64,000 nt of DNA from an uncultured Oscillibacter sp. (GTDB taxonomy: Bacteria; Bacillota; Clostridia; Oscillospirales; Oscillospiraceae). The stretch spans positions 2,146 through 66,145 of the forward strand of contig CATNDJ010000008.1 in assembly GCA_950097265.1 (NCBI GenBank). Direction: 5' to 3'. Position numbers and translations under genes: made by a program. Positions 1 through 44,373 of this stretch are shown piece by piece; within the stretch, counting starts at the first letter, position 1, and each line of letters starts with the position of its first letter. The notes under the pieces were generated by a model. The model ran no database searches. It saw only the letters and a list, made by a program, of their open reading frames with translations, and had not been told where the DNA came from.

Positions 1-13
1 CCGCCCCTTCTCT

Positions 14-217
14 CTATTCCGGTCTGATGCCGTAGACCTCAAATCTGCCGAGGATATTTTGCAGGGTCAGCTTCTGGGCCAAAAGCTGCTGGTAGGTGGC
101 CCCCCGCTGCTTCCCCGCCTCCCGGAGCCTGTCCATGTCGGAGAGCACCTTGTCCCGCTCCCGCAGAAGGTCCGTATACATGCGGTCGTAAGCCGCCAGC
201 CGTTCCTGATCCGTCAT
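14..217 (-). CDS. small hypothetical coiled-coil-type protein
   Basis: A 67-residue acidic/basic, heptad-like protein (starts MTDQERLAAYDRMY) that follows ychF directly. An ATG at 232 would also open the frame, but it lies inside the ychF stop region and has no ribosome site. The ATG at 217 is preceded by AAGGCGG at about 5 nt, so that start is preferred; translation is then coupled to ychF. There is no signal peptide or membrane segment, and the middle (about residues 10-50) looks helical with many Arg, Glu and Leu. I do not recognise a family. The tight coupling suggests it is really expressed; its function is unknown. Confidence 0.6.
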   Translation of the reverse strand: MTDQERLAAYDRMYTDLLRERDKVLSDMDRLREAGKQRGATYQQLLAQKLTLQNILGRFEVYGIRPE

Positions 218-224
218 CGCCGCC

Positions 225-1316
225 TTACACATTGAACCGGAAGTAGATCATGTCGCCGTCCTGGACCACGTATTCCTTGCCCTCGCTGCGAAGCAGGCCC
301 TTTTCCCTGGCGGCGGCCACGCTGCCGCAGGCGGCCATGTCAGCGTAGGCGATGACCTCCGCCCGGATGAAGCCCCGCTCGATGTCGGAGTGGATCTTCC
401 CCGCGGCCTGGGGGGCCTTGGTGCCTTTTTTAATCGTCCAGGCCCGGCACTCGTCCTTTCCGTAGGTCAGGAAGGAGATGAGTCCCAGCAGAGTATAAGA
501 GCACTTAATGAGCCGGTCCAGCCCGGACTCCTCCACGCCGATCTCCGCCAGGAACATCTGCTTCTCCTCGCCCTCCAGTTCCGCCACGTCCTGCTCCAGC
601 TTGGCGCAGATGGGCAGGACCTGACTGCCCTCGGCGGCGGCGATTTCGCAGACCTGCCGGTAGTATTGGTTGTTTTCCAGGTCGGAGAAGCCGTCCTCGT
701 CGGTGTTGGCGGCGTAAATGACGGGCTTGAGGGTCAAGAGCTCGCTGGTCCGCAGCAGAGCGGCGTCGTCCGGATCGCACTGGAAGGTCCGGGCCAGCTT
801 CCCCTCATCCAGGTGCTTCTGGAGGGCGGTGAACAGCTCCACCTCGTGGGCGAACTTCTTGTCTCCCTTCAGGGCCTTCGCCGCCTTTTCCACCCGGCGC
901 TGGACCATCTCCAGGTCCGCCATGACCAGCTCCATGTTGATGATGTCGATATCCCGCCGGGGGTCCGTGGAGCCCTCCACATGGATGACGTTTTCGTCGT
1001 CGAAGCAGCGGACCACGTGGACCACCGCGTCGGTCTCCCGGATGTTGGCCAGGAATTTGTTCCCCAAGCCCTCGCCCTTGCTGGCGCCCTTCACCAATCC
1101 CGCGATGTCCACGAACTCGATGACGGCCGGGGTCTTCTTGTCCGGTTCATACATCTCCGCCAGGCGGTCCAGCCGCTCGTCGGGAACGGCCACCATGCCC
1201 ACGTTGGGGTCTATGGTGCAGAAGGGATAGTTGGCGCTTTCCGCGCCCGCGTTGGTGATGGCGTTGAACAGAGTGGATTTCCCCACGTTGGGAAGTCCCA
1301 CGATTCCTAATTTCAT
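225..1316 (-). CDS. ychF: redox-regulated ATPase YchF (Obg-related P-loop protein)
   Basis: A 363-residue protein of full family length. The N-terminus MKLGIVGLPNVGKST carries the G1 P-loop (residues 8-15), followed by the switch region and the DIAGLVKGAS segment typical of Obg/YchF; the C-terminal third is the TGS-like end (PQAAGKIHSDIERGF, ending YFRFNV). In YchF the usual NKxD G4 motif is changed, which makes it prefer ATP; here the equivalent reads YAANTDED. The protein acts in the cytoplasm with ribosomes and in stress responses in characterised species. AAAGGAG lies about 12 nt before the ATG. The divergent neighbour is smc, and a SigA-type promoter is visible upstream. Confidence 0.96.
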   Translation of the reverse strand: MKLGIVGLPNVGKSTLFNAITNAGAESANYPFCTIDPNVGMVAVPDERLDRLAEMYEPDKKTPAVIEFVDIAGLVKGASKGEGLGNKFLANIRETDAVVHVVRCFDDENVIHVEGSTDPRRDIDIINMELVMADLEMVQRRVEKAAKALKGDKKFAHEVELFTALQKHLDEGKLARTFQCDPDDAALLRTSELLTLKPVIYAANTDEDGFSDLENNQYYRQVCEIAAAEGSQVLPICAKLEQDVAELEGEEKQMFLAEIGVEESGLDRLIKCSYTLLGLISFLTYGKDECRAWTIKKGTKAPQAAGKIHSDIERGFIRAEVIAYADMAACGSVAAAREKGLLRSEGKEYVVQDGDMIYFRFNV

Positions 1317-1384
1317 AGTGTTTTACAACTCCTTTATTTTCAAAGGTTCCCGCGGAAGGGTCCGGACAGCCTGCATGTTTTTTT

Positions 1385-1413
1385 ATTATAGCACAGCGCT
1401 CCGCATTTCTCAA
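1385..1413 (-). promoter_or_regulatory. SigA-type promoter of ychF
   Basis: Read on the minus strand: TTGAGA, a 17-bp spacer, then TATAAT. It lies about 70 bp before the ychF start in the divergent ychF/smc intergenic region. Confidence 0.75.
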
Positions 1414-1447
1414 TACTCATTCGCCCGCCTCCTTTACAGATTTTGTC

Positions 1448-1476
1448 TTGAAATGCGGCGCGTTCTCTGATATAGT
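1448..1476 (+). promoter_or_regulatory. SigA-type promoter of the smc-rsfS operon
   Basis: TTGAAA, a 17-bp spacer and TATAGT, ending 50 bp before the smc GTG start. It is back to back with the ychF promoter 35 bp away, so the two divide the 210-bp gap. Confidence 0.7.
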
Positions 1477-1526
1477 TAATTGATTATTGAAGCCCCCTTT
1501 GGCGGAGCTTCGGCAGAGGTGGAAAC

Positions 1527-4500
1527 GTGTATTTAAAAGCGCTGGAAATTCAAGGCTTTAAGTCCTTCCCGGACAAGACCGTCCTGAACTTCGGGGAGGA
1601 CATCACCGCCATCGTGGGACCCAACGGCTCGGGAAAATCCAATATCTCCGACGCCATCCGCTGGGTCATGGGCGAGCAGAGCGCCAAAGGCCTCCGGGGC
1701 GCGAAGATGGAGGACGTCATTTTCGGCGGCACGGAGCAGCGGAATCAGGTGGGCTTCGCCCAGGTGACGCTGGTGCTGGACAACACGGAGCACATTTTCC
1801 CTTCCGTGGAGGAGGCGGAAGTGGCCGTCACCCGGCGGTATTACCGCAGCGGAGAGAGCGAATACTACATCAACCGCCAGTCCGTCCGGCTCAAAGACGT
1901 AACGGAGCTGTTTCTGGACACCGGCCTTGGGCGGGAGGGCTACTCCATCATCGGCCAGGGCAAGATCGACGAAATTCTCTCCACCCGGAGCAGCGAGCGC
2001 CGGGAGATTTTTGAGGAGGCCGCGGGCATCTCCCGCTTCCGCCACCGGAAGGAGGAGGCGGAGCGGAAGCTGGAGCGGACGGAGGAAAACCTGGTCCGCA
2101 TCAACGACAAGATTTCAGAGCTGGAGCTCCAGGTGGAGCCCCTGCGGGACCAGGCGGAAAAGGCAAAGCAGTACCTCATCCTGCGGGACGAGCTGCGGAT
2201 ATTGGAAATCTCCGTATGGCTGGAGAACCTGGACGCGCTGAAAATCAGCGCCCGGAAGCTGGAGATGGACTTCCGGGCCGCCGAGAAGGAGCGGGACGAG
2301 GCCCGGGCCGCCCTGGACGAGCTCTACGCCGAAGGAGAGCGCTTCGGCGAGGAGATGCGCCGGAAGGACATGGAGGCGGAGCAGGTCCGCGCGGAGGCCG
2401 GGGAGCTGGACGCTCAGGCCAAGGACCAGTCCGCCGCCGTGGCGGTGCTGGAAAGCACCATCGCCCACAACCAGGAGAACATCGACCGGGCCCAGGCGGA
2501 GCTGGTGGAGTCCGACAGCCGGGCCGGGGGCCTGGCGGCCCAGTCCGCCCAGGAGAAGGACCGGGCGGAGAGCCTGTCCCGCCGGCTGGAGGAGCTGAAC
2601 AAGGGCCTGGACGCCCTTTTGGAAAAGGCCCGGGCCGCCGCCGAGGAGGCGGGGGGCCAGCAGTCCGAGGCGGAGGCCCTCCGGGGCCGGGAGGCCATGG
2701 CCGTGGCCGCCGCCGCCGATGCCCGGGCGGAAGCCGCCGCCATCGCCGCCGAGAACGGCCAGCTGGAGGAGCGGCGGCAGGCCGTGGAGTCGGAGAAGGC
2801 CGCCGCGGAGGAACAAATGGAACAGGCGCGGAAGGAGGCCAAAGCCAACCGCCGCGCTTTGGAGGACGCCCGGGACGACGCACAGGCCGCCGCCAACATC
2901 ATCGCGGGCCACAGTCTCAAGATGGAGGAGCGGGAAAAGAAAGCCGCCGCCGCCTCGGACAAGCGGATGAAGCTGACCATGGACGCGGGAGCCCTGGAAA
3001 ACCGCATCCGGCTGCTGACGGAGATGGAGAAGGACTACGAGGGCTTCTCCAAGGCCGTGAAGCTGGTGTGCCAGAACAACCTCCGGGGGGTCCACGGCCC
3101 CGTGGCGGGGCTGATGCGGACGGAACAGCAGTATACCGTCGCCATCGAAATCGCCCTGGGGGCGGGCCTCCAGAACATCGTCGTGGACCGGGAGGAGGAC
3201 GCGAAAGCCGCCATCGGCTACCTGAAGCAGCGGGACGGGGGCCGGGCCACCTTCCTGCCCCTCACCGCCATCCGGGGGGAGGAGCTGCGCCAGAGCGGCG
3301 TGGAAAAGGAGTTCGGCTTCGTGGGAATCGCCTCCCGGCTGGTGAGCTTCGACCCCAAGTATCAGAACATCTTCCAGAACCTCCTGGGCCGGACGGTCGT
3401 CGCGGAGGACCTGGACTGCGGCATCGCCCTGGCCCGGAAGTACCACAACGCTTTCCGCATCGTCACCCTGGACGGCCAGGTCATCAACCGGGGGGGCTCC
3501 ATGACCGGCGGTTCCGCGTCCCGAAATTCCGGCGTGCTGAGCCGGGCGGCGGAACTGGAAAAGCTCCACGGCCGCTCCGCCGAAATGCGGGAGCGCCTGG
3601 AGGCCGCCAAGCGGGAGGAAGAGGCGCTCCAGCGGGACCTCTCCGCCGCCCGGTACGACCTGGAGACCGCCGAGGGCCAGCGCCGCCAGGCGGAGGACGA
3701 AGTGCTGCGGCTGGAGGGCGCGAAGAATCACTTTGACATTCTGCTCAAATCTTTGGGCGAGAATTTGGAGAACCTGACGGGAGAGCTGGAGAGCCTCGCC
3801 GGCCACCTGGAGGACAACCGGCGGCGGAAGGAGGCGGCGGAACAGGCCATCGCCCGGCAGGAGGCCCAGGCCGCCCAGTACCGGGAGCAGGCCGGAAAGG
3901 CCCTGTCGGGACAGTCCGAGCTGCTGGCCCAGTCCAGCGCCCTGACCGAGGAGGTCACCGCCAGGAAAGAGGCGCTGGCCGCCCTCACCGCCGAGCGGGA
4001 CGCGGCCGTCCAGCGGGCGGCGGACCTCAGGCGCCTGGCGGCGGAGCTGACGGGAGACCGCCGGCAGAAGGAGGAGACCCTGGGGAATTACCAGGAGGCC
4101 ATCGGCAAGGCCCAGGCGGAAATCGCCCGCCGCCGGAAAGAGCAGAACTCCCTGAATGAACGGCGGCGAAACTGCCAGGAGCGCCTGAGCGCGCTGAACG
4201 AGGAAAAAATGGCCCTGGAGGCCCGGCGCACCGCCCAGAACAAGCGAAGCCAGGAGATGAACGAGAACCTGTTGAACCTGGAGCGCTCCGCCTCCCGGCT
4301 GGAGCAGAAGCTGGCCACCTCCGGCATGGAGGAAAAGCAGATTCTGGACCGCCTCTGGGAGCACTACGAGCTGAGCCACAGCGACGCTCAGGCCCAGCGC
4401 ATCGAGCTGGAGAGCGTCCCCAAAGCCGCCCGGCGCATCGGGGAGCTGAAACGGGGCATCGCCGCCCTGGGCACGCCGAATATCGGGGCCATTGAGGAGT

Positions 4501-5087
4501 ATGAGCGGGTGAACACCCGGTATACTTATTTAACGGACCAGCGGGACGACGTGGAGAAGGCCAAGGGGGAGCTGGAAACCATCATCGGCGGCATCACCGG
4601 GGAGATGACCCGGATTTTCGCCGAGCAGTTCCAGCTTTTGAACGAGAGCTTCAAGGCCACCTTCCTGGAGATGTTCGGCGGCGGACAGGCCCAGCTGGAG
4701 CTGGAGGACGAGTCCGACATCTTAAACTGCGGCATCGACATCAAGGCCCAGCCGCCGGGGAAGACGCTGAAAACCATTTCCCTGCTCTCCGGCGGGGAAA
4801 AAGCCTTTGTGGCCATCGCGCTGTACTTCTCGATTTTGAAGGTCCACCCCACCCCCTTCTGCGTCATGGACGAGATCGAGGCGGCCCTGGACGACGTAAA
4901 CGTCACCCGCTACGCCCGGTACATGCGGGGCCTGACGGGAAAGACCCAGTTCATCGTCATCACCCACCGCCGGGGTACCATGGAGGAGGCCGACGTCTTG
5001 TATGGCGTGACCATGCAGGAAAAGGGCGTCAGCAAAATCCTGACCATCAACTTGAACGACATGGCGAAGGAGCTGGATATTCAGTAA
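1527..5087 (+). CDS. smc: chromosome segregation protein SMC
   Basis: A 1,186-residue structural-maintenance-of-chromosomes ATPase, the family's normal length. N-terminus MYLKALEIQGFKSFPDKT with Walker A GPNGSGKS (about residues 32-39); long Glu/Arg/Ala coiled coil; hinge about 505-640 (glycine-rich NRGGSMTGGSA at its end); second coiled coil; ABC signature LLSGGEKA near residue 1088 and Walker B FCVMDEIEAALDD near 1115. It forms the condensin that compacts and separates the chromosome with ScpAB, which are not in this window. The start is GTG at 1527, with AGAGGTGG as ribosome site. It is the first gene of the operon; ftsY follows after a 52-codon gene, echoing the smc-ftsY linkage seen in many Firmicutes. 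Confidence 0.98.
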   Translation: MYLKALEIQGFKSFPDKTVLNFGEDITAIVGPNGSGKSNISDAIRWVMGEQSAKGLRGAKMEDVIFGGTEQRNQVGFAQVTLVLDNTEHIFPSVEEAEVAVTRRYYRSGESEYYINRQSVRLKDVTELFLDTGLGREGYSIIGQGKIDEILSTRSSERREIFEEAAGISRFRHRKEEAERKLERTEENLVRINDKISELELQVEPLRDQAEKAKQYLILRDELRILEISVWLENLDALKISARKLEMDFRAAEKERDEARAALDELYAEGERFGEEMRRKDMEAEQVRAEAGELDAQAKDQSAAVAVLESTIAHNQENIDRAQAELVESDSRAGGLAAQSAQEKDRAESLSRRLEELNKGLDALLEKARAAAEEAGGQQSEAEALRGREAMAVAAAADARAEAAAIAAENGQLEERRQAVESEKAAAEEQMEQARKEAKANRRALEDARDDAQAAANIIAGHSLKMEEREKKAAAASDKRMKLTMDAGALENRIRLLTEMEKDYEGFSKAVKLVCQNNLRGVHGPVAGLMRTEQQYTVAIEIALGAGLQNIVVDREEDAKAAIGYLKQRDGGRATFLPLTAIRGEELRQSGVEKEFGFVGIASRLVSFDPKYQNIFQNLLGRTVVAEDLDCGIALARKYHNAFRIVTLDGQVINRGGSMTGGSASRNSGVLSRAAELEKLHGRSAEMRERLEAAKREEEALQRDLSAARYDLETAEGQRRQAEDEVLRLEGAKNHFDILLKSLGENLENLTGELESLAGHLEDNRRRKEAAEQAIARQEAQAAQYREQAGKALSGQSELLAQSSALTEEVTARKEALAALTAERDAAVQRAADLRRLAAELTGDRRQKEETLGNYQEAIGKAQAEIARRRKEQNSLNERRRNCQERLSALNEEKMALEARRTAQNKRSQEMNENLLNLERSASRLEQKLATSGMEEKQILDRLWEHYELSHSDAQAQRIELESVPKAARRIGELKRGIAALGTPNIGAIEEYERVNTRYTYLTDQRDDVEKAKGELETIIGGITGEMTRIFAEQFQLLNESFKATFLEMFGGGQAQLELEDESDILNCGIDIKAQPPGKTLKTISLLSGGEKAFVAIALYFSILKVHPTPFCVMDEIEAALDDVNVTRYARYMRGLTGKTQFIVITHRRGTMEEADVLYGVTMQEKGVSKILTINLNDMAKELDIQ

Positions 5088-5100
5088 GGAGGACAAGCGG

Positions 5101-5259
5101 ATGAGAGCTGTTGGAATTGCCGGGGTCGTTTTACTGATTATGGCGATCCCCTTGCTACGGCAATATCGGAACAGTATGGCGCTGCCGGTGATAGGCCTGA
5201 TTTGTTTGGCCGTTGGTGGGCTACTGGTTCGCTGGAGCAGAGTAAATAGTCGGAAATAA
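5101..5259 (+). CDS. 52-residue two-helix membrane protein
   Basis: A short gene set exactly between smc and ftsY. AAGGAGG lies 8 nt before the ATG. Translation gives two hydrophobic stretches (about residues 4-19, GIAGVVLLIMAIPLL, and 26-44, ALPVIGLICLAVGGLLV) separated by a short RQYRNS loop and ending in a basic SRVNSRK tail, so a small hairpin-like membrane protein. The stop is followed at once by the ftsY ribosome site. It uses TTA, CTA, TTG and GTT codons, which are rare in the flanking GC-rich genes, so its base composition differs from its neighbours. No family is recognised. Two good Shine-Dalgarno sites and the exact fit in the operon support a real gene. Confidence 0.75.
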   Translation: MRAVGIAGVVLLIMAIPLLRQYRNSMALPVIGLICLAVGGLLVRWSRVNSRK

Positions 5260-5268
5260 GGAGGACCT

Positions 5269-6141
5269 ATGGGTTTCTTTGACAAGCTGAAAAAAATCAC
5301 CACCAACATGTTCGCCGCCTACACCGAGGCCGACGAGGCCTTCTTCGAGGAGCTGGAGGAAACCCTGATCCTCTCCGACTTCGGTATGGAAATCGCCGTG
5401 GACACGGTGGAAAAGCTCCGGGAGAAGGTCCGAAAGGAGAAGCTCTCCAGCCAGGAGGAGGTCCGGGCCGCCCTGCGGGAGATCATTGTGGACGCGCTGA
5501 ACGTGGGCACCACAGAGGTGAACGTCTCCACCTCCCCCTGCGTCTTCCTCTTCATCGGGGTCAACGGCGTGGGCAAAACCACCTCCATCGGCAAAATGGC
5601 GAATCTCCTGCGCTACGGCGGGAAGAAGTGCCTCCTCTGCGCGGCGGACACCTTCCGGGCGGCGGCGGCAGACCAGCTGGAAATCTGGTCCCAGCGGGCC
5701 AAGGCGGACCTGATTCGCCAGCATGAGGGGGCGGACCCAGGCGCTGTGCTCTTCGACGCCCTTCAGGCCGCCAAGGCCCGGGGCGTGGACGTGGTGCTCT
5801 GCGACACAGCGGGGCGGCTCCACAATAAGGCCAATCTTATGGCGGAGCTGGCGAAGCTCTCGAAAATCATCGACCGGGAGTGTCCCGGCGCGGCCCGGGA
5901 GACTCTGCTGGTGCTGGACGCCACCACCGGACAAAACGGCCTGGTCCAGGCCAAGACCTTCAAGGAGGCGGCGGGCCTGACGGGCATCATCCTCACCAAG
6001 CTGGACGGAACCGCCAAGGGGGGCATCGCCGTGGCCATCGCCCAGGAACTGGGCGTGCCCGTGAAGTTCGCGGGAGTCGGCGAGGACATCGACGACCTCC
6101 GGCCCTTCGATTCCGAGGAATACGCAGAAGCAATTATTTAA
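5269..6141 (+). CDS. ftsY: signal recognition particle receptor FtsY
   Basis: A 290-residue SRP-family GTPase. The N-terminal NF-domain helix bundle ([14 protein letters not shown] onward) is followed by the GTPase G domain with P-loop GVNGVGKTT (about residues 98-106), the [11 protein letters not shown] segment, DTAGRLHNK and [10 protein letters not shown] (about 243-252). It docks SRP-ribosome complexes at the membrane for co-translational insertion. The long acidic A domain of enterobacterial FtsY is absent, which is usual in Firmicutes; membrane binding must rely on the amphipathic N-terminal helix. AAGGAGG lies 6 nt before the ATG. It is in the smc operon; rph follows after 14 bp. Confidence 0.97.
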
Positions 6142-6155
6142 AGGAGGAGGCGCTT

Positions 6156-6878
6156 ATGACCAGAGAGGACGGCCGGGCGTTTAACGAGCTGCGGCCCGTG
6201 ACCATTACCACCGATTTCATCAAATTCGCCGAAGGGAGCTGCCTCATCCAATGTGGGGACACCATGGTCCTCTGCTGCGCCAGCGTGGAAGAGCGGGTCC
6301 CGCCTCACGTCCCCTTCGGGGAAGGCTGGGTGACCGCCGAGTACTCCATGCTGCCCCGGGCCAACCGGGAGCGGAGCCGCCGGGACGTATCCAAGCTGAA
6401 ATTATCCCCCCGAAGCGCCGAAATCCAGCGCCTGGTGGGCCGGTCCCTCCGCTCCGCCGTGGATAGAAGCAAGCTGGGGGAGCGGACCATTACCATCGAC
6501 TGCGACGTGCTCCAGGGAGACGGCGGGACCCGTACCGCCTCCGTCACCGGGGGCTTCGTGGCCCTGGCCCTGGCCTGCCGGAAGCTGGTGGAAAATGGCG
6601 ACCTGGGGGCCAGCCCCATCCGGCACTATGTCACCGGCGTCTCCGCCGGCATTGTGGAGGACGCCCCCCTGCTGGACCTCCGGTACAGCGAGGACAGCCG
6701 GGCCCAGGTGGATCTGAACTGCGTGATGAACGAGCTGGGAGAGCTCATTGAAATTCAGGGCACCGGCGAGGGCCGGGCCTTCAGCCCTGCCGAGCAGCAG
6801 GAGCTGGTCCGGCTCTGCGCCAAGGGCTGCAAGGAGCTGCTGGCAGCCCAGAAGGAAGCGTTGGGAGGGAAATTCTGA
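6156..6878 (+). CDS. rph: ribonuclease PH
   Basis: A 240-residue phosphorolytic 3'-5' exoribonuclease that trims tRNA 3' ends. The start is ATG 6156, preceded by AAAGGAGGAGG; the reading frame is open further upstream, but that part overlaps ftsY in another frame. Recognisable parts are MTREDGRAFNELRPV at the N-terminus, the RSRRDVSKLKLSPRS stretch, EIQRLVGRSLRS (about residues 89-100), DCDVLQGDGGTRTAS (about 114-128) and EIQGTGEGRAFS near 195, all hallmarks of RNase PH. Length matches the family. It overlaps rdgB by TGATG, implying coupled translation. The rph-rdgB pair is common in Gram-positives. Confidence 0.97.
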   Translation: MTREDGRAFNELRPVTITTDFIKFAEGSCLIQCGDTMVLCCASVEERVPPHVPFGEGWVTAEYSMLPRANRERSRRDVSKLKLSPRSAEIQRLVGRSLRSAVDRSKLGERTITIDCDVLQGDGGTRTASVTGGFVALALACRKLVENGDLGASPIRHYVTGVSAGIVEDAPLLDLRYSEDSRAQVDLNCVMNELGELIEIQGTGEGRAFSPAEQQELVRLCAKGCKELLAAQKEALGGKF

Positions 6879-38248: not shown

Positions 38249-41200
38249 ATGCGCATCAGACAACGCATATTATCCCTGCTGCTGGCCGGGGCGCTGCTGG
38301 TCCCCGGGCTCCCGGCGGCGGAGGCCGCCTGGGGTGGCGAGGACACGGGCTCCGTCTCCGCCACGGTCCGGGTGGACTGGCCCCAGACCCTGGAGGCCCT
38401 CCGGGACCGGAGGGTCCGGGCGGAGCTGTACCAGGAGGGCCGCTCCCTGGGAATCCTGGATTTGACGAGAGAAGACGGCCGGGCGGACCTGGGGGGCTAT
38501 CCCGCCTCCGTGGCCCTGCGGAACCAGGACGGCGGGGCCCTGGGCGGCGGCCGGTGGCCCGGGTATCTGGACCTGACCGTCTCCGGCCTGCCCCAGGGGG
38601 ATTATGCCCTGGAGTTCACCGGGGACGGCTACGCGGACTGCCGCCAGGAACTGACCGTCGGCCGGTACTCCCAGCATGTCACATTGGGCACGGCGGACGG
38701 CTCCTTTACCCTGGGGGACGTAAACGGCGACGGCCGGGTCAATCACCGGGACCGGGAGGAGCTGGCGGATGCCCTGGGCTCCGGCCGGCGGCGGGACCTG
38801 GAGCGCTATGACCTGAACGGCGACGGCGCAGTGGACGTGTACGACCTGGCCGCCGTCAGCCGGAACCTGAGGGCGGAGGGCCGCCCCGAGGTCCGGGACA
38901 CGAACCTGCTGGCCCCGCCGGTGGAGGAGATCCGCCTGGGGGCGGGCGCCGGGCTGGCCTCCGGCGCTCTGGAAGATCTGTTCAAGAACAACGGCGAAAC
39001 CGTCACCCTGTCCGGCATGCCCTTAGAGCTTGCCGTCTCCCTGGAGGAGCCGGTGGAGATGGAGGAAATACAGATCATTTCCCCCGAAGGGCCCGAGGCC
39101 ATGCGGGCGGGCTCCGTCGTCGTGTCCTACGAGGACGGGACCCAAGAGTCCTTCCCCTTTGACCTCTCCCTGCCTGAGGGAATCCACGCCATCGGCCCCG
39201 CGGAGGGCACCAGCGTGGTGAAAATCTCCCTGGGCCGCCGGGTGGCGGTCAAGGAAATCGTCATCACCGTCACCCGCACCCAGGGCGGGGATTACACCAC
39301 GGTAGAGTCCATCCAGTTCCTCCGGGAGATCGTCCCGGAGCGCCCCTCCGCCGCCTCCGGCGTGGTGCGGAACCTCACCGCCGTCCCCGGAAACGAGCGG
39401 GTCAGCCTCCGCTGGAGCGAGGTTCCCAACGTCTCCGGCTACCGGGTGGACTACTGGCCTCAGGACGGCGGCAGCCGCCGTTCCCTGCGGACGGACGTGC
39501 CCCGGGCGGAGGTCACGGGGCTGGAGAACCTGAAAACCTACCTGTTCACCGTCACCCCCGTAGACGGAACCTGGGAGGGAACCGCCTGCGACCCCGTAGC
39601 CGCCGCGCCCCAGCCCGCCAGGGCTCCCAGCGCCCCGGACATGGTGAGCGTGAGCCCGCTGGACGGCGCATTGTCCGTGAGCTGGAAGGCCGCGGAAAAC
39701 GCCACGTTCTACGAGGTCTGGTACAAGGCGGAAAGCGAGTCCGCCTTCCGCCAGTGGGGCGGCCGCCTCAGCGGAACCGGCGCCGTCATCACGGATCTGA
39801 CCAACGGCGTCACTTACTCCATCTACATCCAGGCGGGAAACAGCCTGGGCGTCAGCGGGCCCTCCCGCACCGCCCTGGGAACTCCCGCCGCCGTGGACTA
39901 CTCCCGCCCGGAGGGTATTCCCTCCGAGGGCGTGCTGGACTGGCGGGACATTGAAAAGGTCTGGCTGGCCGCGCCCTACAACGTGTCGCCCACCGCCTAC
40001 CCCGCCTCCCGGCCCTTCCGGCCGGAGTTTATGGCCGACGGCGATTTCAGCACCCACTGGACCTCCCATTCCTATGGCGACGGCAACTGGTGGGACAGCA
40101 AGCAGGTCTTCGCCTCCTTCAAGGAGCCCGTGGACCTCAGCGCCGTCATCTGGGTCCCCCGGCTGGACGGGGGCTACCCCAGCAACCTCCAGCTCTACAC
40201 CGTCACCGTTTGGCGGCAGGGGGACGACCTGAAGGGCCCCGGGACGCTGGCGTCCCCGAATCCCCTCCAGGGGGGCGACGCCTCGGACCACAACACCTGG
40301 CTGGGCGTGGGGAACAATCCCGCCGCGACGAAGTTCGCCGTGATGCCCTTCCAGCCCATGACGGACGTGGTGCAGATCGCCGTCACCGTCGAGCAGGTGG
40401 GCTACACGGCGGCGAGCCTGTCGGAGCTGATGTTTATGGAGTACGACCCGGCCCATTGTCTGCCGGACAACATCGCGGACCTGTTTGCCGGCGAGCTGCG
40501 GACCGCCCTGCGCCCCGGCGTCTCCCTGGCGGACGTGGACGCCCTGCGGCTGCGGCTGGAGGGCGATGAGCGAAAATACTACCTGAATCCGGACACCCTG
40601 TCGGACGAGCTGGACCTGGCGGAGGAACTTCTGCAAAACGGGGCCTCCTCCGGCGTGCTGCTGAATGGCGTCCAGTCCCGGGACGGCGGGGCGGACGGCA
40701 AAAAGTACGGTCAGGGCGGCAGCGTCCTCCAGCCCCTAGGAGTCGCCGCCAAGGCGAAGCAGGAGCTGACCATTTACGCCTCCGGCATCCCGGCCGGGCA
40801 GAAGCTGACGGTGTACGCCAGCCAGTTCAACGCCGAGGCCTCCGCCTGGCAGGCGGAGATCGGGACCCTCTCCAACGGGCGGAACGTGCTGACGGTACCC
40901 CAGATCGGCAGCCAGAACACCCCCCGGGGCGGCAGCCTCTATCTGACCTACGGCGGGCCGGAGCCCGGGAACATCCGCCTCCACATCCGCCGGGGAACGG
41001 ACATCCCGGTGCTGGAGCTGGCGGACTGGTACGCCATGAGCGACAGCCGGAGAAGAGACGAGCTGGACCGCTACGCCGGGGAGCTGGAAGCCTACGTCTC
41101 CGGCCTGGGCCCGGCCGGCGCCTCCCTGCAAACCGACATTTTCAACGTCACGGAAATCTCCACCCCCACCATGCTGCTGTCCCTCCCCGCCGCCGCGGCC

Positions 41201-43132
41201 CTGAACGGTGCGGGCCGGAGCCGAGCGGAGCGGGCCGAGACCCTGTATCAGGCCGTCCTGGCCTGGGAGGACGTCATGCACGTCTGCAAAATTACCCAGG
41301 GCATCGACCGTACCCGGGAGGAAAACGACATGCACTCCCGCCAGAACATCCGCTGCATGCAGATGTTTGCCGGAGCCTTCATGTACGCCGCGGGGAGCCA
41401 CATCGGCATCGGCTACGGCTCCTGCGCCGGAATGGTCTGCGGAAAGCCCATCAGCTCCATGGGCCCCTCCGACGCGGCCAACCGGCTCTACGGCTGGGGC
41501 ATCGCCCACGAAATCGGGCACAACATGGATAAGCTGGGGAAAGCGGAAATCACCAACAACATCTATTCCCTGATGGTCCAGACCTTCGACGGGAAGCAGA
41601 ACACCCTCCCCTCCCGCCTGGAGAAAAGCGGGAAATACAAGGCTGTCTTCAACAAGACCGCCCAAGGCCTCCCCGGGGACTCCAGCGACGTCTTCGTGCA
41701 GCTGGGCCTCTATTGGCAGCTCCACCTGGCCTATGACGGCGGGGACAAACCCTTCGATTTCTACAACCGCTTTTTCAAAGCCTGGAAGGCCGGGACCTAT
41801 TTTGGCGGCGAGGCGGGCTATCAGGACCGGGTGGCCCGAACCGCTTCCGCCGTGGCGGACCGGAATCTGACGGAGTTCTTTACCCGCTGGGGCATGTCCC
41901 TCAGCGAGGGCACCAGGGCGGCGCTGAAAAAGTACCCGGAGGAAACCCGGGCCCTCTGGTATCTGAACGACCGGAGCCGCCGGGAGCGGCTGGCAAGCGC
42001 TCCGGCGGGCCAGGGAACCGTCTCTCTGACGGCGGCCCTGGAGGGAGAGAAGACGGTCCGGCTGGCCATCGCTTCCACCATCTCCCAGGGCACGGTTCAA
42101 GGCTATGAGATCCTCCGTAACGGCGCGCCAATCGCCTTTACCACGGAGAAAACCTATACGGACGTCATCGGCTCGGCCAACCACCGGACCTTTACCTACA
42201 GCGTCCGGGCCTACGATACCTTGGGGAACCTTATCGCCGGGGCCGCGGCGGACGAGCTGCGGATCGCCTACGACAAGACCGTCCCGGCGGACGCTTACAC
42301 GCTGAACCGAAACGGGACCACCGTCACCTTTACCCTGCGGGAGGAAACCCCGGTTTCCGGCCTGAAAATCACGGGGGCCCCCGCCTCCGGCCCGTTCGCC
42401 GTCACCGTCACGGACAAGGACGGAAAAACCACCGCCGCCCGCTCCGGCGACTTCAAAGAGGGAAACCAGGCGGCGGACGGCGGGAGCGGCTACCTGACCT
42501 ACTTCCAGAAGCCCGGCGCGGAGGCGGCGGACACCCGCATCTGGACCTATGACGCGAAAACCGTCGTTGTCACCGGCGTGCCGGAGGGGGCGAATCCCCA
42601 GCTCATCAGCTACGCCGGGGACGACGTGGCCTTCCTGGAGAACGGGGCCGTGGGCGTGCTGTCCAAAGCGTACCGCTACGGCACGGAGGCCAATCAAGTC
42701 ATCCCCGCCGGGACGCTGATTGTCACCGGAACTTACCGGGGCGACCCGGCCTATCAGACCGTGAAGATCGAAGGACGCTTTACCCGGACCCTCCTCACCG
42801 GCGGGGAGGACGGGGTGGAAACCTCTACGGAGGCCCGCTGGATGGACGGAAGGGCCCTGCTCTTCGCCGAGGTCCCCAAGGACGGCAAGGTCTGCGACAT
42901 CAGCGACGGCCTGTTTATCTTCATCCCCAACGTCCAGAAGGAAGCGGAGCTCCAGGGCGGGGCCAGCGCGTGCAATGCCGCCGCCCTCCTGCCCGCCCAG
43001 ATGCGGGCGGTGCTCTCCCGGACGGACCGGCCCACCCAGGCAGAAAGCCAGCGGGTGACGGCGGAGACCCTTTGGATCAACACCCCCGGCGGGGAGGACC
43101 TGCCGGCCATCGTATTGGAGGAAGGCGAATGA
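38249..43132 (+). CDS. secreted M60-family (enhancin-like, mucin-type) metallopeptidase with dockerin, FN3 and discoidin domains
   Basis: A 1,627-residue secreted protein. Signal peptide about residues 1-26 (ILSLLLAGALLVPGLPAAEA). A complete dockerin lies at about 155-205: two calcium loops, DVNGDGRVNHRD (from D157) and DLNGDGAVDVYD (from D188). Then a galactose-binding-like domain (about 220-365), two fibronectin type III domains (about 370-455, 456-550), a discoidin/F5-8C-like domain (about 570-730), and the M60 domain with zinc motif HEIGHN (H1087, E1088, H1091) preceded by the conserved GSHIGIGYGSC. FN3-like and unknown beta domains fill 1,240-1,627. M60 enzymes cut O-glycosylated mucins. 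GGACACC-type ribosome site upstream; the ATG of the SLH gene overlaps its stop. Confidence 0.9.
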   Translation: MRIRQRILSLLLAGALLVPGLPAAEAAWGGEDTGSVSATVRVDWPQTLEALRDRRVRAELYQEGRSLGILDLTREDGRADLGGYPASVALRNQDGGALGGGRWPGYLDLTVSGLPQGDYALEFTGDGYADCRQELTVGRYSQHVTLGTADGSFTLGDVNGDGRVNHRDREELADALGSGRRRDLERYDLNGDGAVDVYDLAAVSRNLRAEGRPEVRDTNLLAPPVEEIRLGAGAGLASGALEDLFKNNGETVTLSGMPLELAVSLEEPVEMEEIQIISPEGPEAMRAGSVVVSYEDGTQESFPFDLSLPEGIHAIGPAEGTSVVKISLGRRVAVKEIVITVTRTQGGDYTTVESIQFLREIVPERPSAASGVVRNLTAVPGNERVSLRWSEVPNVSGYRVDYWPQDGGSRRSLRTDVPRAEVTGLENLKTYLFTVTPVDGTWEGTACDPVAAAPQPARAPSAPDMVSVSPLDGALSVSWKAAENATFYEVWYKAESESAFRQWGGRLSGTGAVITDLTNGVTYSIYIQAGNSLGVSGPSRTALGTPAAVDYSRPEGIPSEGVLDWRDIEKVWLAAPYNVSPTAYPASRPFRPEFMADGDFSTHWTSHSYGDGNWWDSKQVFASFKEPVDLSAVIWVPRLDGGYPSNLQLYTVTVWRQGDDLKGPGTLASPNPLQGGDASDHNTWLGVGNNPAATKFAVMPFQPMTDVVQIAVTVEQVGYTAASLSELMFMEYDPAHCLPDNIADLFAGELRTALRPGVSLADVDALRLRLEGDERKYYLNPDTLSDELDLAEELLQNGASSGVLLNGVQSRDGGADGKKYGQGGSVLQPLGVAAKAKQELTIYASGIPAGQKLTVYASQFNAEASAWQAEIGTLSNGRNVLTVPQIGSQNTPRGGSLYLTYGGPEPGNIRLHIRRGTDIPVLELADWYAMSDSRRRDELDRYAGELEAYVSGLGPAGASLQTDIFNVTEISTPTMLLSLPAAAALNGAGRSRAERAETLYQAVLAWEDVMHVCKITQGIDRTREENDMHSRQNIRCMQMFAGAFMYAAGSHIGIGYGSCAGMVCGKPISSMGPSDAANRLYGWGIAHEIGHNMDKLGKAEITNNIYSLMVQTFDGKQNTLPSRLEKSGKYKAVFNKTAQGLPGDSSDVFVQLGLYWQLHLAYDGGDKPFDFYNRFFKAWKAGTYFGGEAGYQDRVARTASAVADRNLTEFFTRWGMSLSEGTRAALKKYPEETRALWYLNDRSRRERLASAPAGQGTVSLTAALEGEKTVRLAIASTISQGTVQGYEILRNGAPIAFTTEKTYTDVIGSANHRTFTYSVRAYDTLGNLIAGAAADELRIAYDKTVPADAYTLNRNGTTVTFTLREETPVSGLKITGAPASGPFAVTVTDKDGKTTAARSGDFKEGNQAADGGSGYLTYFQKPGAEAADTRIWTYDAKTVVVTGVPEGANPQLISYAGDDVAFLENGAVGVLSKAYRYGTEANQVIPAGTLIVTGTYRGDPAYQTVKIEGRFTRTLLTGGEDGVETSTEARWMDGRALLFAEVPKDGKVCDISDGLFIFIPNVQKEAELQGGASACNAAALLPAQMRAVLSRTDRPTQAESQRVTAETLWINTPGGEDLPAIVLEEGE

Positions 43133-44373
43133 AACGTTTGTTATCCGGCCTTCTGGCCCTGTGCCTGCTCTGCGCCCTGCCGGTAACGGCGGCCGCCCGG
43201 GACTCCCTCACCCTCTCCTGCCGGGAGCGGGGCGGCGAGGTCCGCCTCACCCTGGAGGGCCTGGACCGGCAGGCCTACGCCCTCCAGCTGGAGCTGATTC
43301 TGGAGGGCGAATGCCCCGAGGCCCGCTTTGAATCCCTGCCCCGGGGCGTCTACAGCCCGGACTGCCATGTGGAAACGGACCGGGACGAGACCGCCGTCAC
43401 CATCTACCTGGTGGCGGAGGACGAACCCCTGACGGGCCGTTCCCTGGATCTGGGGACGCTGATCCCGGGGAGCGCGTTCCGCCTCCCCGCCCGGGCGGAG
43501 CTGCTGCTGCTGGACCGGAGCCTGCAGCCCATCTCTGAGGGCCGAATCCCCCTGGAGGAAAGCGAGGACGGAGACGGCGGCCTGAGCCGGGTCCACATCG
43601 TCCAGGCGGAGCACGGCACTGTGGCCGTCCGGCCCGCCGGGGCCAAGGAGGGCGAGACGGTGACTCTGAACGTCGTCCCCGACGCAGGATACGCCCTGGA
43701 GGCCATCGCCGCCCGGGACAGCCGGGAGCGGGAGGTTTCCCTGACCCGGGACGGGCTGAACCGCTATACCTTCTCCATGCCCGCCCTGGACGTGGAGGTG
43801 ACGGCTTCCTTTGTTCCCGGCGGGGAACTGGCCTTCCAGGACGTGCGGCCGGGAGACTGGTGCTACGACGCGGTGCGCTACGTCTTCGAGGCGGGGCTGA
43901 TGAACGGCACCTCCGCCACGGCCTTTACCCCCAACGCCTCCACCACCCGGGGGCAGATTGTGGCGATCCTCTACCGGCTGGAGGGCTCTCCCGTCACGGG
44001 GGCAAACCAGTTCAGCGACGTGGCCCCCGGGGCCTACTACGCCGCCGCCGTCTCCTGGGCTTCCGGCAGCGGAATTGTCAACGGCTACAGCGACGGGACC
44101 TTCCGGCCTAACAACCTGATTACCCGGGAGCAGATGGCGGCTTTCCTGTACCGCTACGCCTCCCGGAAGGGCCGGGATGTGTCCGGCCGGGCGGAGCTCA
44201 GCGCCTTTGCCGACGCGGGGCAAATCGCGTCTTACGCCGTGGAGCCCCTGAGCTGGGCCGTGGCGGCGGGGCTCATCAACGGCGTTGCCGCCGGCTCCCT
44301 TTCCCCCGGCGGGAACGCCAGCCGGGCCCAGGTGGCGGTGATCCTCAGCCGCTTCGTGCAGAACGTGCACTGA
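43129..44373 (+). CDS. SLH-domain surface protein, N-terminus possibly cohesin-like
   Basis: A 414-residue secreted protein starting at ATG 43129, which overlaps the M60 stop (ATGA); GGAGGAAGG lies just upstream. Signal peptide about 1-23 (LLSGLLALCLLCALPVTAAA). Residues 25-140 are a beta-rich domain (VRLTLEGLDRQAYALQLEL; AVTIYLVAEDEPLTG; LDLGTLIPGSAF) whose strand order and turn spacing recall cohesins, though similarity is weak. Residues about 155-230 resemble an InlB B-repeat (EHGTVAVRPAGAKEGETVTL). Three S-layer homology domains follow (about 233-290, 293-352, 355-414; FQDVRPGDWCYDAVRYVFEA, FSDVAPGAYYAAAVSWA, FADAGQIASYAVEPLSWA), which bind secondary wall polymer. It should sit on the cell wall beside the co-expressed peptidase. 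Confidence 0.88.
   Translation: MKRLLSGLLALCLLCALPVTAAARDSLTLSCRERGGEVRLTLEGLDRQAYALQLELILEGECPEARFESLPRGVYSPDCHVETDRDETAVTIYLVAEDEPLTGRSLDLGTLIPGSAFRLPARAELLLLDRSLQPISEGRIPLEESEDGDGGLSRVHIVQAEHGTVAVRPAGAKEGETVTLNVVPDAGYALEAIAARDSREREVSLTRDGLNRYTFSMPALDVEVTASFVPGGELAFQDVRPGDWCYDAVRYVFEAGLMNGTSATAFTPNASTTRGQIVAILYRLEGSPVTGANQFSDVAPGAYYAAAVSWASGSGIVNGYSDGTFRPNNLITREQMAAFLYRYASRKGRDVSGRAELSAFADAGQIASYAVEPLSWAVAAGLINGVAAGSLSPGGNASRAQVAVILSRFVQNVH

Follow-up and report, generated by a model that had tools for sequence, protein, structure and literature searches.

Which partner receives the dockerin of a bacterial peptidase when no protein of the same genome is recognised as a cohesin? This question is raised by two overlapping genes in a 64,000-nucleotide stretch of DNA from an uncultured Oscillibacter sp. 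(Oscillospirales, Oscillospiraceae; GenBank assembly GCA_950097265.1, contig CATNDJ010000008.1, forward-strand positions 2,146 to 66,145; the whole stretch is called the window here). The first gene codes for an M60 peptidase with an internal dockerin and the second for a surface protein with S-layer homology (SLH) domains. We read the pair as a minimal one-to-one surface dock, in which the N-terminal domain of the SLH protein (N-domain) acts as a divergent cohesin and receives the dockerin of the M60 enzyme, holding a probable O-glycopeptidase at the cell; we give this reading a probability of about 0.7. In the proposed arrangement, the SLH protein would be exported and anchored to the wall through its three SLH domains, with the divergent cohesin at its outer end, and the M60 enzyme, presumably co-transcribed from the overlapping upstream gene, would be exported as well. 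The dockerin of the enzyme, together with an adjoining beta domain, would then plug into the cohesin of the SLH protein, and this docking would keep the enzyme at the cell surface.

A preliminary description of the locus had already proposed a divergent cohesin in the N-domain as the partner of the enzyme's dockerin. The proposal gained support from the predicted structure, the linkage of the genes, the exchange or fusion of the anchor and the presence of one dockerin and no Pfam cohesin in the genome, but not from any dockerin-specific coevolution. Binding between the two domains is a proposal drawn from predicted structure and genetics.

Predicted fold of the N-terminal domain

The N-domain, previously described as beta-rich, comprises about 120 residues, is indeed predicted to be all-beta and has no Pfam match above the cut-off. 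An AlphaFold2 model based on alignment A1, which contains 14 N-domain homologues, had ten strands, a predicted local distance difference test score (pLDDT) of 88.9 and a predicted template modelling score (pTM) of 0.83. The model was searched with Foldseek against 350,542 PDB chains, and cohesin entries were judged by title. At E<=1e-3, 14 of the 15 matches were cohesin entries, the exception being cobra venom factor, and the best solved match was 2jh2, a cohesin-like module of Clostridium perfringens (1.4e-4). By sequence, the domain thus falls outside the Pfam family Cohesin (PF00963), whereas its nearest solved fold is that of a cohesin. We also compared the profile of 49 N-domains with that of 20 Pfam-recognised cohesins from the same bacterial family; the two aligned in register over 73 columns with a score of 22.1, the highest among the comparisons made, and the controls reached at most 19.5 with ten other domains (over no more than 26 columns) and 10.9 with 40 column shuffles. 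Structure modelling and profile-profile comparison were among the checks suggested in the preliminary description, which had named a fold of another kind as evidence against its proposal. No such fold emerged from AlphaFold and Foldseek, and the fold match pointed to cohesins, with a loose superposition; the link between the sequence profiles turned out to be weak.

Among 49 N-domain sequences, strongly conserved positions on the predicted strands 3 and 6 include Y72 (49/49), Q32 (43/49) and T70 (40/49); position 34 is less conserved, with E in 29 and T in 17 of them, and in strands 2, 7 and 8 most positions of the alternating series are variable. Judged from strand alternation rather than from coordinates, Y72, Q32 and T70 would face outward. 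In solved cohesin complexes, the dockerin is bound on the 8-3-6-5 face, which includes strands 3 and 6. The state of residue 34 (E or not) was associated with that of position 13 in the first dockerin loop (R or not; 23/5 vs. 6/12, Fisher test 0.0015), but we gave this association no weight because it concerns fixed-offset positions and relatedness was left uncorrected.

Linkage to M60 genes and exchange of the anchor

N-domain genes were collected by a contig scan with the SLH protein, by searching 300 genomes of the family with A1 and the M60 family PF13402, and by searching 345 genomes of the order with alignment A4. The hidden Markov models (HMMs) for dockerin, N-domain, SLH and M60 were custom-built, partly from sequences that are counted here, with the exception of 15 loci (L174–L188). 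The scan with the SLH protein yielded 35 loci, 13 of which contained an N-domain (L002–L014), each directly 3' of an M60-dockerin gene; the remaining 22 matched solely from query residue 159 onward. A survey of relatives, as called for in the preliminary description, hence found the gene pair in all 13 named relatives with an N-domain, plus dozens more.

In the 300 family genomes, A1 was detected in 18, with an M60 gene just upstream in every case and a match to the dockerin family PF00404 in 17; in the other one (G050), the M60 frame is truncated by a contig end. PF13402 revealed M60 in 43 of the family genomes, and these loci were read with dockerins called by PF00404 or by the custom HMM. 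At 30 of the 43, an M60-dockerin gene is followed by a separate N-domain-SLH gene; within this group, G182 and G222 have their SLH part cut by a contig end, G091 has a broken M60 frame, and the dockerin of G071 was detected by the custom HMM only. At three further loci, the M60 gene next to an N-domain-SLH gene is either truncated (G050, G282) or broken and devoid of a recognised dockerin (G118), one M60-dockerin gene is the last on its contig (G180), four loci from one genus carry SLH fused to the M60-dockerin protein, and three code for an N-domain protein with a membrane tail replacing SLH (G202, G216, G294). At the last two loci (G156, G073), neither dockerin nor N-domain was found by the HMMs used.

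Alignment A4 matched 24 places in 23 of the order genomes, comprising seven known, 15 new and two weak, unrelated ones. All 15 new places consist of an M60-dockerin gene and an N-domain gene, and their dockerins, which were outside the training set of the dockerin HMM, all scored at E<=1.4e-9. The two discarded matches lack an M60 hit at their loci: the one in G125 (4.4e-4) resembles a LysR-type regulator by eye, and the one in G383 (0.008) gave no N-domain hit when the locus was read.

In total, 64 of 64 distinct N-domain genes lie directly after an M60 gene, and a dockerin was found by the custom HMM in 61 cases, the other three being two M60 genes cut by contig ends and one that is broken. 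Searches with the SLH protein or the N-domain contributed 46 of the loci (the window's own and 45 others), M60 searches 16 and the dockerin list two; because the latter 18 were collected via M60 or the dockerin list, linkage is partly a selection criterion for them. No N-domain away from an M60 gene was present among the 64 collected. On account of this linkage, we rejected the view of the SLH protein as a common member of its kind that stands there by chance.

The anchors of the 64 N-domain proteins are SLH domains in 57 cases, a membrane tail in five (L141, L142, L143, L187, L188; in three, a TG-type motif precedes the tail, PATGDE, QTGDSN) and an interrupted SLH frame in two (L131, L184). 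In L137–L140 (G288, G207, G152, G077), the M60-dockerin protein is fused to C-terminal SLH domains, giving one protein of about 2,200 amino acids. Three of these four fused proteins contain a stretch before the SLH domains (6–10 bits, E<=0.0021 in a four-sequence search; p 0.0008 and a probability of 24% in profile comparison) whose resemblance to the N-domain is suggestive only.

The assembly of the window's genome comprises 2.49 Mb in 139 contigs and has a completeness of 91.5%. PF00404 matched this genome once at E<=1 and PF00963 not at all, be it at E<=0.001 or at E<=10. Because PF00963 found nothing there, the pairing of dockerins with other scaffoldins, which the preliminary description had regarded as evidence against its proposal, was not encountered in this genome. 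In the 300-genome family sample, at the thresholds used, PF00404 occurs in 133 genomes, PF00963 in 95, both in 86 and A1 in 18. The 205 genomes without PF00963 include 15 with A1, 47 with a dockerin and 14 with both; a dockerin is therefore present in 14 of 15 N-domain genomes vs. 33 of 190 others (Fisher test 2.5e-9), a co-occurrence that is not independent of the linkage, given that N-domain and dockerin are encoded by neighbouring genes. Exactly one match to PF00404 at E<=0.001 was found in 14 of the 17 A1 genomes that have any. A dockerin accompanied by neither PF00963 nor A1 was recorded in 33 of the 300 genomes; on locus reading, 11 of these carry the pair or its membrane-tail variant, G180 is cut by the contig end, and 21 have no such explanation. 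A1 misses divergent N-domains, and by locus reading at least 36 of the 300 genomes carry one.

Counter-evidence and alternative readings

Several results weigh against a cohesin that receives the dockerin. The superposition of the N-domain model on the 14 cohesins was loose, with template modelling (TM) scores of 0.38–0.53 (query) and 0.32–0.44 (target) and root-mean-square deviations of 6.7–9.6 Å. PF00963 matched none of 32 N-domains at E<=10 and none of seven more divergent ones, no match at E<=10 in 44 genomes (36 with an N-domain locus) fell on an N-domain, and profile searches of the PDB sequences with the N-domain recovered no cohesin. The profile-profile match to cohesins was statistically weak (p 0.0032, probability 10%) and weaker still with 33 N-domains (p 0.035, probability 1.5%). 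On the side of the enzyme, the simple two-loop pattern is missing in 5 of 66 dockerins. Correlations of domain distances, which covered 50 of the 64 pairs and ranked 45 domain pairs by partial correlation with no tree modelled, added further points. The dockerin and the N-domain showed a partial correlation of 0.094 (rank 21 of 45) and thus no excess, the dockerin being short (58 columns), and the N-domain and the first fn3 region of the enzyme ranked second with 0.387. In favour of the dock, the N-domain distances correlated at r 0.62–0.82 with those of the enzyme domains vs. 0.40 with those of its own SLH domains, a divergence pattern that would suit an exchangeable anchor and an N-domain linked to the enzyme; this contrast is partly a property of SLH because the SLH distances correlated poorly with every domain (0.40–0.56).

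The fn3 value would suit a different contact, in which the N-domain touches another part of the enzyme, for example the first fn3 region at about residues 368–458, and the dockerin has another role or partner. Linkage and anchor swapping suit any contact with the enzyme, but the fold search led to cohesins, the enzyme has a dockerin at 61 of 64 loci, and the correlation test is noisy for a dockerin of this length and takes no tree into account; we consider such a contact quite unlikely. It also appears unlikely that the dockerin is a calcium-stiffened structural module and the N-domain a carbohydrate-binding or spacer beta-sandwich, the genes being neighbours by shared regulation only. The N-domain stays beside M60 at all 64 loci and is kept when the anchor changes, its divergence tracks the enzyme over SLH, and cohesins make up 14 of its 15 best solved matches; such a pair of modules would nevertheless agree with the weak sequence profile link to cohesins and with the frequency of dockerins without a Pfam cohesin, which amount to 47 of the 133 dockerin genomes in the family sample. 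Finally, the unit may belong to a larger, unseen cellulosome-like complex of the organism or its community, with the SLH protein as one of several anchors. This would be in line with another PF00963 match (E<=0.01) elsewhere in 3 of 18 A1 genomes, with the seven and six dockerins of G070 and G147 and with the incomplete assembly of the window's genome; set against the lone dockerin and missing PF00963 of that genome and the single dockerin in 14 of 17 dockerin-bearing A1 genomes, we judge it very unlikely.

Beyond the minimal surface dock of this locus, we lean towards an entire cohesin family that has diverged beyond the reach of present sequence models and would form private one-enzyme docks with M60 dockerins across the bacterial order, the dock being fixed and the anchor exchanged (SLH, membrane tail) or fused; among the orphan dockerins of gut Firmicutes, some may be received by hidden cohesins of this kind. 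If the docking reading is true, gut bacteria would use the cohesin-dockerin plug to hold a single enzyme at the surface instead of building a multi-enzyme scaffold, a partner would be found for seemingly partnerless dockerins, searches that demand Pfam hits for cohesin as well as dockerin would undercount such systems, and the compact binding pair would be useful for engineering. Should the enzyme be an O-glycopeptidase, the wall of these commensals would carry a mucin-cutting enzyme of their own.

Related systems and architecture of the two proteins

The docking principle is known, and the pair would act as an anchoring scaffoldin does, here with a single cohesin. The class of anchoring scaffoldins, in which a cohesin is combined with SLH or another type of anchor, has been described (PMC11557425). 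As presented there, SLH-anchoring scaffoldins likewise combine at least one cohesin with SLH on one surface protein that receives a dockerin, but the receiver described here has no PF00963 match and would serve one adjacent peptidase gene instead of a scaffoldin or many cellulases. Compared with this class, it has three SLH domains for wall binding and a cohesin-like domain that matches cohesins by predicted fold but not by sequence. Cohesin-dockerin-based mucin breakdown is described for the Limousia mucinolysome (Akresi et al. 2026, PMC12997984), in which dockerin-bearing peptidases and the wall-anchored cohesin protein cSca5 with its sortase motif occur, and for whose discovery Pfam matches to cohesin and to dockerin were both required. 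It resembles the present case as a gut Firmicutes assembly with dockerin peptidases and a wall-anchored cohesin protein, but comprises many enzymes and several scaffoldins compared with one enzyme and one putative hidden cohesin here; the main text of that paper mentions neither M60 nor SLH nor Oscillibacter. The several dockerin enzymes and multi-cohesin scaffoldins typical of a cellulosome or mucinolysome were not found in the window's 91.5% complete assembly, which has one dockerin and no PF00963 match.

The X82 cohesins of C. perfringens, which occur with dockerins, are summarised in PMC12997984 and appeared among the Foldseek matches as 2jh2, 2vo8 and 2o4e; they are also single non-cellulosomal cohesins, but sit on glycoside hydrolases instead of an SLH anchor. 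In anaerobic methanotrophic (ANME) archaea, non-cellulosomal cohesin-dockerin links have likewise been suggested as a means of fixing proteins to the cell surface (PMC9012536); these pairs belong to other organisms and proteins, and their domains were found by standard annotation. A survey of M60-like/PF13402 proteins (Nakjang et al. 2012, PMC3267712) reported the M60 domain in host-associated microbes, and its associated-domain table has entries for dockerin type 1 (2, 2) and for S-layer homology (3, 1), taken here as numbers of domains and proteins; the available text of this source contains neither the word cohesin nor a pair with a neighbouring SLH protein. By title and abstract start, no treatment of the M60-dockerin/N-domain-SLH gene pair was found in the open-licence PMC literature.

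The architecture given for the enzyme in the preliminary description, namely a frame of 1,627 amino acids, calcium loops at D157 and D188 and an intact HEIGHN zinc site, was borne out by sequence and Pfam, as were the three SLH domains of the next gene (PF00395, 122.4 bits). The genes overlap as described, but by four bases (ATGA) instead of one: the SLH gene starts with ATG at 43129, and the TGA of the upstream M60 gene occupies 43130–43132. Features absent from that account are a B-repeat in the SLH protein and, in the enzyme, a beta domain before the dockerin (Table 1), two fn3 stretches and an F5/8-C match below threshold (the latter two by Pfam).

Table 1. Features of the M60-dockerin and SLH protein genes in window coordinates.
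Feature	Position	Strand	Basis
M60 peptidase gene, 1,627 amino acids, internal dockerin, presumably secreted	38249..43132	+	Open reading frame, Pfam
Conserved beta domain, residues 35–148, directly before dockerin, X-module-like position	38351..38692	+	Alignment A2, model
Dockerin type I module, residues 155–207	38711..38869	+	PF00404
First calcium loop, residues 157–168	38717..38752	+	Sequence
Second calcium loop, residues 188–199	38810..38845	+	Sequence
Peptidase_M60 domain, residues 1005–1215	41261..41893	+	PF13402
HEIGHN zinc site, residues 1087–1092	41507..41524	+	Sequence; 14/14 aligned homologues
ATGA stop/start overlap	43129..43132	+	Sequence
SLH surface protein gene, 414 amino acids	43129..44373	+	Open reading frame
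Cohesin-like N-domain, about residues 22–145	43192..43563	+	AlphaFold2 model, Foldseek, conservation
B-repeat, Flg_new_2/InlB-type (PF18998); absent in some relatives (L013, L014)	43591..43818	+	Pfam
Three SLH domains	43834..44337 (43834-43956, 44011-44139, 44206-44337)	+	PF00395

With 37.3 bits against Dockerin_1 (PF00404; cut-off 22.9) and two calcium loops, the dockerin has the form of type I. The peptidase domain scored 72.7 bits (PF13402; cut-off 25.8) and contains HExxH with a downstream E, and HEIGHN...KAE is kept in 14 of 14 aligned M60 homologues. Members of the M60 family cleave O-glycosylated mucin-like substrates; judged by this family membership only, the substrate would be of mucin type and the enzyme a probable O-glycopeptidase. 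The conserved beta domain of about 110 amino acids adjoins the dockerin N-terminally. A model of the two (mean pLDDT 64.3) was confident in the beta domain and poor in the dockerin, and its Foldseek search placed type II X-module-dockerin (XDoc) chains at ranks 2 and 4 (E about 0.01) with nothing at E<=1e-3; because of the poor dockerin part, this search is a hint only. The beta domain and the dockerin showed the highest partial correlation of the domain pairs (0.390), as expected of an X-Doc pair, and they probably form an X-Doc-like unit with the beta domain as putative X-module. In L112 and L118, the first calcium loop of the dockerin is a longer, non-canonical stretch, and the N-domain is well conserved.

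In the SLH protein, two cysteines of the N-domain (model positions 41 and 58), which are common in close relatives, may form a disulfide. Anchoring by SLH is plausible because the window's genome has 65 SLH matches and two matches to PF04230, a pyruvyl-transferase family linked to SLH anchoring.

A few loci deviate from the common arrangement. At L131 (G118; assembly 99% complete in about 20 contigs), the M60 and N-domain-SLH genes are both in broken frames, which may reflect joint decay or an assembly error. At L144 (G156; 1-2871), the M60 gene, in which no dockerin was found, has beside it a frame of 956 amino acids that matches PF00963 weakly and resembles a dockerin at its C-terminal end. 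At L147 (G291, same genus sample; about 2-6856), a different protein carries a dockerin at its C-terminus, and after it comes one of 962 amino acids, whose N-terminus is cohesin-like by eye (no PF00963 match) and precedes Big_2-like repeats, also recognised by eye, and SLH; this pair possibly represents the same docking principle with another enzyme.

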